Positions 7,086 to 61,143 of a stretch of DNA of 64,000 nucleotides are shown piece after piece. The position numbers and the translations under genes are program-made. This DNA comes from Chiridota heheva (taxonomy: Eukaryota; Echinodermata; Holothuroidea; Apodida; Chiridotidae), in assembly GCA_020152595.1 (NCBI GenBank), contig JAIGNY010004119.1, positions 514,001 through 578,000 on the forward strand. Reading direction: 5' to 3'. The notes under the pieces are model-generated. The model searched no databases, was not told the DNA's origin, and worked only from the letters and a program-made list of their open reading frames with translations. The number at the start of each line of letters is the position of its first letter. The stretch's first letter is position 1.

Positions 7086-7152
7086 CACTCTCAGGCACAA
7101 TTTGACCCTTGCTGTTGTGATGCCGTTAAACTCTCATCAAACAAACAAACAA
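7086..7152 (+). mobile_element. LINE 3' tail only (copy 3)
   Basis: About 67 bp matching the extreme 3' end of the LINE family (CTCTCAGGCACAATTTGACC, then GTTGTGATGCCGTTAA, then CAAACAAACAA). It is preceded by unrelated T-rich DNA. An extreme 5' truncation, as expected from aborted target-primed reverse transcription. Confidence 0.85.
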
Positions 7153-7610
7153 TCTTTTTTATTTTATCGTTCTTTCATATATATGCAAAAACATAACTTT
7201 CAAAATCATACAGACTGTGATCACTACTCTTTAAGTAGGTTTTATAACAAATCACAAAATAATAACGTGTATTACAACATTTAAAGTTGAAGATAAGATC
7301 TGATGTAATTTGGTGATATTTGTATTCAATAGTCAGCCACAGAATATTTCTATGACATTTTCTCCAAAATTTGGATTAAGGAAAAAATTATATGTTAGAT
7401 GAAGCTGTGTTTCTTCAAACTATCATGGTAGGAGATTCAGAAACAATGGATTAGCATAAGAGAAATCTTTCCAACTGATGAGAACATAATTTGCATTTCC
7501 TCTTGATTACAATGATCAATGTTTGATTGATCATGCTGGATATATTTGCTATTTATGTAGTATATATGTTCAGACTCAAAAGCTTTAACTGTGGTGTGTC
7601 CCTCTTTCAG
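7153..7610. other. Intronic sequence before HYR1
   Basis: AT-rich. It ends in the tract GTGTGTCCCTCTTTCAG that serves as the HYR1 acceptor. Confidence 0.45.
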
Positions 7611-20836: not shown

Positions 20837-21013
20837 TTGGTTATTGCCCAGTCCTATCAATACCTTCCAACGGGCGAATGACTTGTAACTACAGAAATTT
20901 GTATGGATCAACATGTTCATATGGTTGCAATATTGGTTACTATATAGTGGGTTCAACATCCAGGTATTGCCCATCAAGTTGTCAGTGGACAGGTTCTCCG
21001 ACCTCCTGTAAAA
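20837..21013 (+). CDS. CCP1 (sushi) exon, seven cysteines
   Basis: Acceptor CATTTTGCAG, donor AAAAGTAAGTAG, phase 1-1, 59 residues. It starts GYCPVLSIPSNGRM and has CSYGCNIGYYIVGS in the middle and QWTGSPTSC near the end. That is a complete sushi module: first Cys with P after it, the C-x3-C-x-x-GY core, the W before the last Cys. The usual sushi has four Cys and the others in this gene have six. This one has seven, the extra one coming from a C-P-S-S-C pair before the Trp. CCP2 shares this trait. The donor region is the seed of the 71-bp array in the following intron. Confidence 0.95.
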
Positions 21014-21139
21014 GTAAGTAGAGTTTGAGGTACTACATTTGCCTCAGACTCTAAACGGACTCCATGAAATCTTTTCTCAAATATAGAAGTTCCACTGTAT
21101 AACACCAGTGATGACTCATAAAGACAAGGCCACTATCGT

Positions 21140-21376
21140 GAACTTCTCTACAACCATATTTAGTCCTCCTCTCTCACCCACCCCCCTACATACTTTTGCC
21201 TTTTTTAGCACCCCTGCACTTCCTCTCTTGATCCCAGCTTCCTGGCTATAAGTCCCTGTACTTCTCTCAGACTCCTATTTTCTTTTCTTTCTACCTCTGG
21301 AACGATCTAAGCTCTCAGGCACAATTTGACCCTCACTGTTGTGGTGCCGTTAAGCCCTCATCAAAGAAACAAACAA
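21140..21376 (+). mobile_element. I/Nimb-like LINE 3' end (copy 6)
   Basis: Only the 3' UTR of the LINE: C/T-rich block, CTCTCAGGCACAATTTGACC, GTTGTGGTGCCGTTAAGC, then (CAAA)n-like tail. It sits between the first (genuine) donor-containing unit and the amplified donor-like units of the 71-bp array, so it split that array or inserted while the array was short. Confidence 0.85.
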
Positions 21377-21399
21377 TCATCCACCCCCTTAAAGACTCC

Positions 21400-22090
21400 A
21401 TGACATATGACCTTCTGTAGAAGTAAGTAGAATTTGAGAAGCTTTTCCCACCCAAGACTCCCTTAATGACTCCATGAAATATGACCTGTAGAAGTAAGTA
21501 GAATTTCAGAAGCTTCACCCACCCAAGACTCCCTTAATGACTCTATAAAATATGACCTGTAGAAGTAAGTAGAATTTGAGAAGCTTTACCCACCCAAGAC
21601 TCCCTTAATGACTCCATAAAATATGACCTGTAGAAGTAAGTAGAATTTCAGAAGCTTCACCCACCCAAGACTCCCTTAATGACTCTATAAAATATGACCT
21701 GTAGAAGTAAGTAGAATTTGAGAAGCTTTACCCACCCAAGACTCCCTTAATGACTCCATAAAATATGACCTGTAGAAGTAAGTAGAATTGGAGAAGCTTT
21801 ACCCATCCAAGACTCCCTTCATGACTCCATGAAATATGACCTCCTGTAGAGGTAAGTAGGATTTGAGAAGCTTTACCCACCCAAGACTCCCTTAATGACT
21901 CCATGAAATATGACCTGTAGAAGTAAGTAGAATTTGAGAAGCTTTACCCACCCAAGACTCCCTTAATGACTCCATAAAATATGACCTGTGGAAGTAAGTA
22001 GAATTTGAGAAGCTTTACCCATCCAAGACTCCCTTCATGAATCCATGAAATATGACCTCCTGTAGAGGTAAGTAGGATTTAAGAAACTTT
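21400..22090. repeat. 71-bp tandem array of splice-donor-containing units
   Basis: Ten donor-like GTAAGTAG sites, GT at 21423, 21494, 21565, 21636, 21707, 21778, 21852, 21923, 21994 and 22068, at a period of 71 bp (74 where a CTC is added). Each unit reads GACC(TCC)TGTAGAAGTAAGTAG, then AATTTGAGAAGC, then CCCAAGACTCCCTTAATGAC and CCATGAAATAT. The true CCP1 exon end (GACCTCCTGTAAAAGTAAGT at about 21000) and the first 60 bases of its intron (AGTTTGAGG, then GACTCCATGAAAT) are recognisably the same unit. Some copies have GAG before GTAAGT and are as good or better donors than the true one. TTCAG and TTGAG variants alternate, a hint of dimeric spread. Confidence 0.93.
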
Positions 22091-22124
22091 ACCAGACTGA
22101 CTCTTTTTTTATTTATTTCTTCAG

Positions 22125-22307
22125 TTGTAACCTGCCCAGTTCTTTCTGATATTCCTATGGGAGTTGTTTCCTGTCCTTCAGGCCATACATACCAAAGTGT
22201 GTGCACATACCGCTGTCAAAATGGCTACACTATCATGGCAGGACAGTCTGCTGCACGAACTTGTTTGTCATGTGGGCGATGGTCCGGAATTGTACCAACC
22301 TGTGTAG
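22125..22307 (+). CDS. CCP2 (sushi) exon, seven cysteines
   Basis: Acceptor TTTATTTCTTCAG, donor GTAGGTTAGT, phase 1-1, 61 residues. It starts VTCPVLSDIPMGVVSC, with core CTYRCQNGYTIM and end RWSGIVPTC. It has seven Cys like CCP1, with a C-L-S-C pair before the conserved Trp, so the two look like a tandem duplicate. An odd Cys count per module suggests that the two spare cysteines pair with each other or with a partner; that is inference. Confidence 0.95.
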
Positions 22308-29500: not shown

Positions 29501-31525
29501 CACACTAAGTTCCTGGGTTTAACTGTAGACCCCAAGATCTCCTACAAGCAACACATCACCAACATGAAACAGAAATGCAACAGCTACCTCAACCTTCTCC
29601 ACTTCCTCCTCAACATCACTTATGGTGCAAACTGCCATGCTCTCCTCAAAATCTTCAGGCTCACCATTCATGCCAAGCTTGACTACGGCAATATTGTCCA
29701 CTGTGTTGCTCACAACTCTTACCTCAATCACATCAATACCTTTCAAAATGAAGCCCTCAGGCTTTGCCTGGGTGCCTACAGGACCTCCCCCATCACCAGC
29801 CTTCATGTTAAAGCCAACGAACCCCCCTTTCTGCTAAAGTGTAGAAAGCTTAGCCTCTCCTATGCTTTTAGGGTCCTCACCAACACCCAGAACCCTGTTT
29901 ACAACCTCATTAGGCACCCAAATTTCTCCACCCTCTTTGATAGAACTAAAACTCTATCCCCTCCCTTCAGCTTACGCATCAAATCAGACCTCCATCTTGG
30001 CATCAATCCCACCACTCTTGGCGCCTTCCCCTGGCCCACTGTTCCGCCCTGGGCCACCCCCTCCCTTTTAATCACCTGGGCCTCTCCACTCATCACAAAA
30101 CCCCAACCCACCCTGACCTCTTCATCAACCTCCACAACCAAATCAAAGACCAACTCTCAAACTACACCTCCATCTATACTGATGGCTCTAAGGAAGGCGA
30201 CAAGACAGCTGCTGCTGCCGTCATCCAAAACATCACCCTCAGTAGCAGGCTTCCCGACTACTCGTCCATCTTCTTGGCCAAGGCTAAGGCCATACTCCTC
30301 GCCTCAACTTTATTGAGTACTCCCCGCTCAGCCACTTTGCCATCTTCTTCAACTCCAAGGCTGTTCTTACTTCTGTGCTCAGTCTAAATGGGATAACCCC
30401 ACATCCCTCCTCCTCTGTAAACTCTTTTTGCCCAACCTTTGCAGGAAAAGTATTCTTTTCATCTGGATACCCAGTCATGTTGGCATCCCTGGTAATGACA
30501 GGGCTGATGCAGCAGCTAAGCTTGCCCTCGACCTCCACACTACCCCATTTCCCCAAACCCTTTCTGACATCAAACTGCTTACCGCTTCCATTGTTCGTGA
30601 CTGCTGGCAAACCTCATGGGACTCTTCTTGGCCGAGGCCAAGGCCATACTCCTCGCCTCAACTTTATTGAGTACTCCCCGCTCAGCCACTTTGCCATCTT
30701 CTTTAACTCCAAGGCTGTTCTTACTTCTGTGCTCAGTCTAAATGGGATAACCCCACATCCCTCCTCCTCCGTAAACTCTTTTTGCCCAACCTTTGCTGGA
30801 GAAGTATTCTTTTCTTCTGGATACCCAGTCATGTTGGCATCCCTGGTAATGACAGGGCTGATGCAGCAGTTAAGCTTGCCCTCGACCTCCACACTACCCC
30901 ATTTCCCCAAACCCTTTCTGACATCAAACTGCTTACCGCTTTCATTGTTCGTGACTGCTGGCAAACCTCATGGGACTCCCAATTTGATAACAAACTCCAC
31001 GTCATCCAGCCCACCATTTTGATCAAACCCACCATCAACAACCTCTTTCGTATTGACAACGTTCGTATTACCCATCTTAAAATAGGTCACACCCACCTCA
31101 CTCACTCCCACCTCCTTATTGACTCCACCAACCCCTCTGCAACAATTGCCATTGCATCCTCACAATCCATCACGTTCTCCTAGCTTGCCCCCTGTACAAC
31201 CTTCCTAGAGCTTCTCTCGCTCCCCACAACTTAATTGCTGAGTTCTTCCAGAAAAACCCTCTGGATAAGTTTATCTTTTTCCTTCATCATGCTTCCCTCT
31301 ACAACCATATTTAATTCTCCTCTTCCAACCCCTCTCTCTACTTGTTTTTTTTTCACCCATGCACCTCCTCTCTCGATCACAGCTTTCTAACTTTTTGATC
31401 TTGTATTTATCTCATTCTCCCCCTATTTCCTTTCCTTCCTACCTCTAGAATGATTTGACTTCTCAGGCACAATTTGACCCTCGCTGTCGTGGTGCCCTTA
31501 AGCCTTCATCAAACAAACAAACAAA
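26508..31525 (+). mobile_element. I/Nimb-like LINE, near full length with internal deletion (copy 7)
   Basis: The 5' UTR starts GAGAGCAACGTG and matches copy 8 (GAGAGCATCGTG at 47619). The gag-like ORF1 begins near 26799 (LDPTSPPHDPSATSIDHS). About 905 bp relative to copy 8 (its 48418-49323) are deleted, joining ORF1 at FLRIP directly to the endonuclease at WSLKANSE and removing the zinc knuckles. ORF2 then shows CLQETF, GSISILVRHDI, the linker, RT (FDLEKALNTTWTY, a degraded finger, LYVDDFTIFYPS), RNase H (TDGSKEGDKTAAAA) and SHVGIPGNDRADAAAKLALD. A 354-bp tandem duplication lies in the RNase H part. The 3' UTR and (CAAA)n tail are typical. Many stops and shifts; inactive. Confidence 0.9.
30271..30978 (+). 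repeat. 354-bp in-frame tandem duplication inside LINE copy 7
   Basis: 30271-30624 and 30625-30978 are nearly identical. Both start TTCTTGGCC and both end ACCTCATGGGACTC. The unit is 354 bp (118 codons) and covers the end of RNase H and the SHVGIPGNDRADA motif. Both units share the same 1-base loss relative to copy 8 (CTCGCCTCAAC against CTTGCCCTCAAC), so the loss came before the duplication. Confidence 0.93.
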
Positions 31526-46671: not shown

Positions 46672-47272
46672 ATTTCTGTCTTTTGTTGATAACATTTGCA
46701 CCTTATCTATTTGATGATAACATTTTTACCTTATCATTTTGTTGATAACATGTGCACCTTATCTTTTTATTGATAACATTTGCGCCTTATCTTTCTGTTG
46801 ATAAAATGTGCACCTTATCTATTTGTTGATAACATTTGCACCTTTTTTTGTTGTTAATAACATGTGCACCTTATCTTTTTATTGATAACATTTGCACCTG
46901 ATCTTTTTGTTGATTACATGTGCACCTTATATTTTTGTTGATAACATTTGCACCTTATCTTTTTGTTGATAACATGTGCACCTTAACTTTTTGTTAATAA
47001 CATTTGCACCTGATCTTTTTATTGATAACATTTGCACCTTATCTTTATGTAGATAACATATGTACCTTATCTTTATGTTGATAACAAGTGCACCTTATCT
47101 TTATGTTGATAACATGTGTACCTTATCTTTATGTTGATAACATGTGCACCTTATCTTTATGTTGATAACATGTGCACCTTATCTTTATGTTGATAACATG
47201 TGCACCTTATCCTTTTGTTGATAAAATTTGCACCTCATCTTTTTGCTGATAACATTTGCACCTTATCTTTAT
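46672..47272. repeat. 30-bp minisatellite ending at the HYR3b splice acceptor
   Basis: About 20 copies of TTGTTGATAACATTTGCACC plus TTATCTTTTT (variants ATGTGCACC, CTTTATG). Each unit carries TGATAAC, which fits the metazoan branch-point pattern yUnAy, and then a pyrimidine-rich stretch without AG. The only AGs in the 47040-47282 stretch are at 47051 and 47087, so the last 195 bases before the acceptor are AG-free. The final unit runs into ATCAAATGCAG, the actual acceptor. Confidence 0.93.
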
Positions 47273-52945: not shown

Positions 52946-53180
52946 ATATTTAGTCCTCATTCCCCACCCCCTCTCTCTTTACATTATTTTTCCACCCATA
53001 CACCTCTCTTGATCCCAGCTTTCTGGCTTTTAGTTTTCGTGTTTCTCTCAATCTTCCCCTATTTCATTTATTTCCTACCTGTTTACTCTCCTTCCTACCT
53101 CCGGAATGATCTAACCTCTCAGGCACAATTTGACCCTTGCTGTTGTGGTGCCGTTAAACTCCCACCAAACAAACAAACAA

Positions 53181-55162
53181 TCAGCAGATGATTTAGTTTG
53201 TTTTGATCCATCTAAAGACATCACCCTTGCAGTGGATGCATCCCCCTACGGTATAGGGGTAGTCATATCCCATATGACCTCAGAGGCTGAAAAACCCATC
53301 GCTTATATATCCATAATCCTGAGTACAGCAGAAAGAAATTATTCACAGCTGAAAAGGTGACATTAGCGATCGTGCATGAAGTGCGTGCATTCCATCAATA
53401 CTTGTGTGGAAAACGATTTTTGTTGTTAACTGGTCACAAACCATTGATGTATTTGTTGGGCTCTAGGAAACTTATACCTGTGCTAGCTGCCTCCAGATTG
53501 CAGCTTTGGACAATTTTGCTTAGTGGCTATGAAGATGATATTAAATATCGAACATCAAAACAAAATGCAAATGCAGATTTTCTGTCAAGGTTACCCCGGG
53601 CAAGTGAATAAGCACTTGATAAGACAGATTTCCTGGTCATGTGGACCTATGAAGCTACCAAAGTTAACCAACTACATATAGATACCCTAACAGTAACAGC
53701 TGTAACTACTACAGGCCATTGAACAGGACCCTGTCTTGTCAAAAGTTCGACATTTTGCTAATATAGGTTAGCCAGAGAATGAAGAAGTAGGAAAATAATT
53801 TTTGCCATTTGTATCTCGTAAACACGAGTTGTCAGTGAAACAAGGATGTCTTTTGTGGGGTGTGGTAGTGGTTATTCCAAACGAATTACAAAGTGTGTAG
53901 TCCTACAAGAGTTGTACGCAGCTCACCTTGGGATTGTGAAGATGAAGAGTTTAGCCAGAAAACAATGTTTTCTGGCCAGGGATAGATCAGGACATTGAGA
54001 AATTGGTTAATGGATGCAAAACTTGTTCGGCCTTCCAAACCTTGCCCCAAAAGGCCCTGGTGAATCATTGAGTCTGGCCCACAAATCCTTGGCAGTGTGC
54101 CCATGTGGACTTTGCTGGTCCTTTATGAGCCGCATGTTCTTATTGGTAGTGGATGCCCATTCTAAATGGCCTAAGGTGATACCAATGAAATCAACTACAA
54201 CTACCAGCACAATTAATGCATTGCGTGCTCTAATTCCACAGCATGGAATACCCCATGAAATTGTCAGTAATAATGGTCCCCAATATATCTCTGATAAGTT
54301 TTAACATTTACCTGCAAAAATGGCATCAGACATATTATATCAGCTGTGAAACACCCAGCATCAAATGGGGAAGTGGAAAGATTTGTGCAAACTTTTACAA
54401 AGGCAATGAAAAAGACTAGTTCTGAAGAAGGTGACATTAATGTCAAAATACACAGATTTCTATTAGCTTATTGGACTACCCCTCATTCTTGGACCAAAGA
54501 AACACCAACCAAATTGCTTGCAAGGCATGAGCTACGTAGCCACCTCAGTTTGATGAGACCAGATGTGAGTACCACTATCAAACAGAAATCTGCCCTCAAG
54601 CCACACAAAGTGCGCCAATTTCAAGTTGACAAGAAAGTGTTGGTATTGGACTTTAGAACGCACTCTGAAAAGTAGAGTGAGGCCAAAATTGTCAAAATTC
54701 TAGGACTGGTGACATATCAGGTCCTTTCTTGATGGTCGCCTTTGCAAGCAACATGTCAATCAAATTTGATGTGTGTCTTTGGCAGTATCCTCTCTGCCAG
54801 GAACCACAAAGGTTCCGGTGCTGAGGTAATTGATGAGCCAGAGCCAAAACAGCTGAATCCAGCCCCTACCTCACTTCCAAATTTGCGAAGATCCTTCAGA
54901 ACTTGTCGTAAACCTCAGAGATTGGAAAGAATTGTAGTGTATGGTAGAAACAGTTTTGTTATGCGCCACCTAATCATGAAAGTACATGAAGTTAATGGTT
55001 GGTTACTGAACAAAAAATGTAAATTAAAACACAACTACAATGTTTGCTATATGTTTTTTATATCTATGCTTATATGTACAATGTTGTTATTATTTTTGTT
55101 AAACTGAATTTTTTTATTTTGTTTTAACTTAAGTTTACAAATGGTTTTGTACTAAGGGAGGA
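53181..55162 (+). pseudogene. Ty3/Gypsy LTR retrotransposon pol remnant (RNase H, integrase), decayed
   Basis: Starts abruptly after the LINE tail within pol. RNase H: LAVDASPYGIGVVIS, KPIAYISIILSTAERNYSQL, a 1-base shift, then VHEVRAFHQYLCGKRF and TGHKPLMYLLGS (the usual D in TDHKPL is G). Then YRTSKQNANADFLSRLP. Integrase follows: a decayed HHCC region (CKTC), WPKVIPMKSTTTTS, HGIPHEIVSNNGPQYISD (the catalytic D of SDNGPQ is N) and HPASNGEVERFVQTFT, keeping the E. A C-terminal RRSFRTCRKPQRLER follows. Several stops and shifts, so it is dead. Protease, RT and gag are absent. Confidence 0.85.
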
Positions 55163-59784: not shown

Positions 59785-61143
59785 GTGAATATTGGCGTAT
59801 GGTACAAATGAGAAAACGTAATCAGTAGTAGTAAGCTTGCCCTCACCCTCCTCCCTGCCCCTTTTCCCAAAACCCTCTCTGACATCAAACCGCTTATCGC
59901 TTCCCTTGTTTGGGACCGCTGGCAAACCTCATGGAAGTCCCAAATTGATAACAAACTCCATGTCATCCAGCCCACAATTCTGATCAAAGCCACCATCAAC
60001 AACCTCTCTCGTATTGACAACGTTCATATTACCCATCTTAGAATTGGTCACACTCATCTCACCCACTCCCACCTCCTTATTGGCTCCCCCCAACCCTTCT
60101 GCAACAATTGCCATTGCCCCGTCACCATCCACCATGTTCTCCTTGCCTGCCTCCCCAGAGTTTCCTTCACCCCTCACAACTCCATAGCCGAACTCTTCCG
60201 GAATAACTCCCCGGAGAAAATTATCTCCTTCCTCCACCATACATCCCTCCACAACCATATTTTGTCCTCCTCCCCCATCCCCCTACTTACTTTTACCTTC
60301 TTTTTTTTTACCACATGCACTTCCTCTTTCGATCCCAGCTTCCTGGCTATTAGCCCCCGTCCTTCTATCAGACTTCTCCTACTATCTTTTGTCTACCTCT
60401 GGAATGATCTAAGTTCTTGTGCACAATTTGGTCCTTGTTGTCGCGGTACCATTAAGCCCTCATCAAACAATCTGCACTTACATTTTCCTATTGACAATAT
60501 GAGTGTATATTACATATTTGACACATCAAGCGCCCCCGCTCTAACAAGCACCCACCCAACATTTTTTGACTGATACTGTTTGAAGACTTAAAATAAGTTT
60601 TGTTTTATTATTTGCTTATTTTGCATCTGACGCTCACACTTTTTTTGTGGTGGGTTATTGTGGGGCTAGTATAGAACCAGCTCACACAATGCGGTTCAAA
60701 TAGCATACTATACACAGCCTTGGCATGGGCCCTTATTAGGAAGGAACTTTGGTCCTAAAAAGAGGTGCAATTCTATTTTTGTAAGTGCCCTGGTTGCTTA
60801 TAACATCGAATACAGTAATTAAAATTATTGCTTATATCTAAAAAAAAATTGATTGTGTCTTTTTGTTCTACTCATGGTTTCATGTTAGTTGTAAAGGGTT
60901 TAGCATGTTACTGTATGGCATTTATAAGAATTCAGCACGCTGCTGTAAGCTGGGAAGTGTTCTTCCCTCATATAAGGGACATACACATAGTGTATGGGAT
61001 ATTATATGTTGTTATAATTAAGGACATAGCATGATGATTGTAGGGAAGCATGTGCTTGTATAGAGTACAATGTGTTGAAGGAAACATATTAAAGATTACC
61101 AATATAGTGAATGTTATTTAAATCTTTCTGGTTTGATTTTTAG
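59785..61143. other. Intron within HYR4
   Basis: LINE copy 10 sits 48 bp downstream of the donor. The remaining 60471-61143 is AT-rich with nothing recognised and ends TTTGATTTTTAG. Confidence 0.6.
59832..60470 (+). mobile_element. I/Nimb-like LINE 3' end (copy 10)
   Basis: Begins within ORF2 after RNase H (KLALTLLPAP-like codons), runs through HITHLRIGHTHLTHSHL and the Cys/His C-terminus to the 3' UTR, and ends CATTAAGCCCTCATCAAACAA. 5'-truncated, in sense, between the two halves of the HYR4 domain. Confidence 0.88.

Follow-up and report, generated by a model that had tools for sequence, protein, structure and literature searches.

The intron between the first two sushi exons of a sushi/HYR gene (exon order CCP1-CCP2-HYR) in the holothurian Chiridota heheva carries a tandem array in which every unit repeats the splice donor of the upstream exon. 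We analyzed this gene in a 64,000-nucleotide stretch of contig JAIGNY010004119.1 (GCA_020152595.1, positions 514,001 to 578,000 of the forward strand), hereafter the window, to which all coordinates refer unless a locus is named. The array is very probably an intronic minisatellite resembling the mirages of amphioxus, founded by a segment of ~74 bp across the exon-intron boundary, with decoy donors that are normally silent and, most likely, without effect on fitness. The splicing behavior and the neutrality are the parts of this reading that we infer. The features concerned are as follows.

20837 to 21013, + strand: CCP1 (sushi) exon, 177 nt, 3′ end in phase 1 (Pfam PF00084, E 4.3e-7 over 20839-21012)
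21000 to 21072, + strand: unit 0, the likely seed of the array, made up of the last 14 exon bases and, with the true donor (GT at 21014), the first 59 intron bases
21014 to 21019, + strand: authentic 5′ splice site AAA|GTAAGT, assigned by its position at the end of the CCP domain and by a paralog with the same donor
21019 to 21021, + strand: TAG, the first stop in the exon frame beyond the donor, beginning five bases past it
21146 to ~21376 (ends approximate), + strand: 3′ end of a 5′-truncated long interspersed nuclear element (LINE) between unit 0 and the array, identified by BLAST to copies in the window
21386 to 22100, + strand: tandem array, a partial unit tail followed by the 71/74-bp units u1-u10 with ten decoy GTAAGTAG sites, from Tandem Repeats Finder (TRF) and the unit listing
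21838 to 21911, + strand: u7, a 74-bp unit with GAG|GTAAGT at 21852, from the unit listing
22054 to 22100, + strand: u10, a partial unit with GAG|GTAAGT at 22068, 57 nt upstream of the CCP2 exon, from the unit listing
22125 to 22307, + strand: CCP2 exon (Pfam PF00084, E 1.8e-10), preceded by a polypyrimidine tract and the acceptor CTTCAG

A first-pass annotation of the sequence had proposed that the CCP1 exon end and about 60 bases of its intron are the same unit as the downstream copies, and alignment bears this out. By BLAST, 21000-21072 matches the array units at 75% over 76 columns (E 6.9e-7), and 54 of 72 aligned positions (75%) are identical to the unit consensus. The local alignment score of unit 0 against the array is 50. 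None of 1,966 random 101-mers drawn from the 64-kb window reaches this value (mean 15.7, sd 2.5, maximum 28). The exon boundary and the array units are, on this alignment, evidently of common origin. The common segment begins with GACCTCCTGT, inside the coding end of the CCP domain, and for this reason the direction of copying was most likely from exon to array.

We weighed these matches against a chance resemblance, in which an unrelated satellite carrying a donor-like motif happens to lie beside the exon. Minisatellites abound, and tandem GTAAGT matches number thousands in the genome. In addition, when the eight donor bases are masked, the score of unit 0 drops to 26, not clearly above the null maximum of 28, and reflects an exact match of 13 bases at the unit's opposite end; this donor-masked test by itself is weak. 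The full match, however, spans both exon and intron, at a score that no random segment comes near. We also compared nine larger arrays of the window with 12 exon ends (arrays chosen from 39 TRF rows, overlapping rows merged, longer arrays truncated after 800 bases, and a null that included segments overlapping unit 0). Only the CCP1-intron array stands out, and it does so against its own exon. A chance origin is thus extremely improbable.

TRF reports the array at 21386-22093 with a period of 71, 9.8 copies, and 92% matches, and with a second period of 216. Ten units downstream of unit 0 span 21409-22100, and every one keeps GTAAGTAG, at 21423-22068, in agreement with the claim that each copy carries a donor. 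The description of these as ten 71-bp copies holds for the number but not for the length, which is 74 bp in u1 and u7, while u10 is partial. On the + strand of the window, GTAAGTAG occurs at 11 sites, all of them here (21014 and the ten in the array); the - strand has one further site, at 60290. In a search of the 1.1-Gb genome (3,744 contigs) that passes over very common words, the array was the sole match, and the assembly thus offers no second haplotype in which array length could be compared.

The units have been homogenized relative to unit 0. Mean pairwise identity among u1-u9 is 94.6%, versus 75% for unit 0 to the consensus, and several units are identical (u2 = u4; u3 = u5 = u8), a pattern of concerted evolution inside the cluster that excludes its edge. 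Three bases of unit 0 are retained in u1, u7, and u10 and are absent from the remaining seven units. We counted this 74-bp form of unit 0 in u1 and u7, together with the three matching bases in u10, in favor of founding by unit 0. Marker bases are common to u6-u7 and u9-u10, and from these we infer that the two GAG|GTAAGT donors go back to a single change copied with its block, rather than to two independent gains.

In the history that we propose, the founding unit would be the ~74-bp segment across the CCP1 exon 3′ end and intron start. A single tandem duplication across the exon-intron boundary would have come first, followed by growth and homogenization through unequal exchange or slippage. 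A later LINE insertion would then have separated unit 0 from the remaining array. The order expected from the first-pass annotation, a LINE 3′ end and then ten decoys between the true donor and CCP2, is indeed present (LINE at 21146-~21376, decoys at 21423-22068). The LINE 3′ end resembles eight other places in the window. Seven of these matches are longer than 220 bases (73-79% identity), and the eighth, at 7088-7154, covers 67 bases at 91%. Its 5′ edge is abrupt, as expected of a 5′-truncated insertion, and no clear target-site duplication was seen by eye. The segment 21073-21145 is not clearly LINE and not clearly array. We considered 21073-21140 as a decayed unit and rejected it, because 174 of 1,476 random segments do as well under strict scoring, and 127 do so under lenient scoring.

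Related genes indicate what preceded the array. On contig C2798 (locus L032), the closest paralog has in the same order a CCP1-like exon (48%), a CCP2-like exon (75%), and a match to the window HYR exon (81% DNA identity). Its CCP1 donor, AAAA|GTAAGTATAG, is the same as the one described here from -4 to +7 (GTAAGT at L032:1403), and TRF found no tandem repeat in its ~1.35-kb intron. Because this array-free paralog has the same donor and intron, both are older than the array, which is evidently the derived state. In a further relative, on contig C5, the donor reads CGG|GTAATG; the ~3-kb intron contains simple repeats, but no GTAAGT array appears there among the TRF matches listed. This relative also carries the single boundary copy described below. 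The second relative on C2798 (L033) has no CCP1-like exon upstream of its CCP2 and is for that reason uninformative on the CCP1 intron.

The first-pass annotation knew of no described case with this layout, and here it was mistaken. Amphioxus mirages are described as tandem repeats spanning exon-intron boundaries in Adh3, the globins BflGb6 and BflGb9, and other loci, with length instability, inner homogenization, and exclusion of cluster boundaries (PMC3087553). A second study adds repeats of 60 and 108 bp at splice sites of PGBD5 (PMC3902484). The array shares with mirages a minisatellite-like tandem structure, a unit that spans the boundary of its host exon, similar unit sizes (10-72 bp in Adh3), splice signals in many copies, and excluded edges (PMC3087553). 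It is unlike them in its CCP/HYR gene, its ten copies, and the LINE that separates the founding unit from the array. In intron 7 of human F7 (coagulation factor VII), a series of 37-bp repeats has the authentic donor in its first copy (PMC6627357), just as unit 0 carries 21014. The array is unlike F7 in having 71/74-bp units in a sushi/HYR gene, and the F7 excerpts mention no LINE. The layout is already known; new details are the gene, the LINE that interrupts the series after unit 0, and possibly the host as well.

Human tandem repeats at exon-intron boundaries can, according to one source, yield new introns (PMC2812944). As in intron gain by tandem genomic duplication, outlined in the mirage study (PMC3087553), the duplicated segment contains splice signals. 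Unlike in that process, no new intron has arisen here; the intron was not absent before the duplication, as the array-free paralog L032 has it at the same position.

We next consider how the eleven donors may be used. The donor at 21014 would be expected in the transcript, with the ten downstream copies removed with the intron, because it is the sole donor that defines a normal-sized 177-nt exon and because it is transcribed first. The decoys would then be latent cryptic donors, expected to act only if 21014 is damaged. Published cases are consistent with this expectation. Adh3 data and reverse transcription PCR of the globins suggest that mirages leave regular splicing undisturbed (PMC3087553), and Adh and TnC mirages are said to duplicate splice sites without aberrant mRNAs (PMC3902484). 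For F7, an oriented scanning mechanism is said to restrict use to the most upstream donor, and downstream cryptic sites are activated upon mutation of the first donor (PMC6627357).

Donor strength alone would not select 21014. U1 pairing energies, calculated with a generic U1 5′ end, from which the organism's own may differ, are -7.2 kcal/mol for the true donor, -7.2 kcal/mol for eight decoys, and -12.3 kcal/mol for the two GAG|GTAAGT decoys. A small position weight matrix (PWM), trained on 11 other window exon ends chosen by eye, gives 8.93, 9.07, and 12.53, respectively. The proposal that the sites at 21852 and 22068 are better than the true donor is thereby confirmed.

Several of these observations weigh against silent, neutral decoys. 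The true donor is no stronger than the decoys, for which reason the preference for the first site is an assumption, and its PWM score ranks below 9 of the 11 other exon ends (the same 11 on which the matrix was trained). Not one of the ten decoys is degraded, an outcome that neutral decay would not ensure. According to work cited in PMC5933811, when U1 occupies two sites >40 nt apart at the same time, the downstream one is used preferentially. Finally, pyrimidine makes up 65% of the sequence upstream of the array's best AG, as compared to 70% for the CCP1 acceptor (TTTTGCAG, upstream of 20837) and 90% for the CCP2 acceptor (across the 20 bases preceding its AG), and pyrimidine content alone is compatible with a cassette exon from the array. 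Because the low rank of the donor and the 70% pyrimidine at the CCP1 acceptor are both irrelevant to how the array arose, we left our confidence unchanged.

The array could instead serve as a regulatory platform, with U1 snRNP sitting on the ten copies. There it would compete with the true donor, strengthen it, or prevent premature polyadenylation, and CCP gene expression would be tuned as a result. Competition for U1 and buffering of the donor were suggestions of the first-pass annotation, and either is conceivable. The stronger U1 pairing of two decoys, next to a true donor on the weak side, would suit such a role, and splicing can be stimulated by U1 binding downstream of a donor (PMC5933811). 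The PAH variants in that study, however, lie 17 and 20 nt downstream, whereas 409 nt separate the true donor from the nearest decoy. The CCP1-CCP2 intron contains no AATAAA or ATTAAA to protect against, and the C2798 paralog does without an array. Conservation of the decoys likewise gives no support for selection: in u1-u9, none of the 8 donor columns (+1 to +8) varies, versus 13 of 66 others, which is not more conservation than expected (P 0.195 under random placement), and 8 of 67 eight-column windows are equally invariant. We consider a regulatory platform unlikely.

Another possibility is that use of the decoys yields extended CCP1 exons or cassette exons with stops, lowering expression through nonsense-mediated decay. 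Each decoy is a fair to good donor, all longer exons carry the TAG after the true donor, and the pyrimidine content at the best AG in the array is near that of the CCP1 acceptor. The longer exons would, however, measure at least 586 nt, and the competing CCP2 acceptor is far richer in pyrimidine. Each reading frame of the array contains 24-25 stops, and its open stretches are at most 26 codons long. Readthrough past the CCP1 donor gives S-K-stop, and because of the in-frame TAG at 21019, every longer CCP1 exon would yield an identical truncation, which ends two codons after CCP1. With this TAG, the earlier suggestion of alternative longer exons is not supported as far as useful exons are concerned. 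Decay-linked exons are accordingly very improbable, and normally silent decoys within a mirage-like minisatellite remain our preferred explanation. The locus offers a clean natural test of spliceosome choice among eleven donors; two of these have better U1 pairing than the true donor, and the array-free paralog can act as control. The array would also illustrate the birth of a minisatellite from a splice junction, for which no new mechanism is needed.

To gauge how common such boundary copying is, we screened CCP exon ends in the window and in loci L002-L045, a set in which relatives of CCP1 and CCP2 are overrepresented. We excluded ends with <500 nt downstream or close to a locus start, as well as ends that lacked a nearby GT and repeated ends. 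A downstream donor-spanning copy accompanies 24 of 81 distinct exon ends; in 20 of the 24, the exon interior is copied too. Of the four boundary-only copies, three were kept: the window site, L045(-) 2484, and L034(-) 1457. The copy at L034(-) 4640 was set aside, as it sits within an internally repeated CCP-like stretch. L045:1944-2519 (contig C3315, minus strand) is a second array, with 3.9 copies of a 148-bp unit. It begins at the donor of an apparently frameshifted CCP-like exon. In the reverse complement of L034, the donor at 1457 has a single copy near 1955, ~500 nt downstream, that aligns over 54 columns (25 exon and 29 intron bases).

One could extend these cases to a broader proposal, that boundary copying recurs in the large sushi family of this lineage (3 of 81 ends, two arrays) and stocks donors for new isoforms or introns, and that the ten extra U1 sites measurably change CCP1 splicing; we regard this as doubtful. 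Counted as overlapping pattern matches and not as arrays, three GTAAGT at 35-65-base gaps occur 19,634 times genome-wide, versus 53,224 for the reversed pattern, and thus show no tandem enrichment. The eight other arrays in the comparison were rejected as donor-derived candidates, since 2.9% to 49% of random segments did at least as well as their best exon end.

Contigs C3315, C2218, and C1751 hold dense clusters of sushi exons, each on one strand, and several pieces of such clusters contain whole-exon duplicates including donors. Elsewhere in the window, a 28-bp array at 46681-47270 ends ~13 bases before the likely acceptor (AATGCAG, by eye) of an HYR exon and may supply its branch-point and polypyrimidine region. 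A 354-bp tandem duplicate (97% matches) at 30269-30978 lies inside a LINE-like reading frame, as judged by eye. At 53115-54675, reading frames look, to judge by their motifs, like remains of a Ty3/gypsy-type polyprotein.
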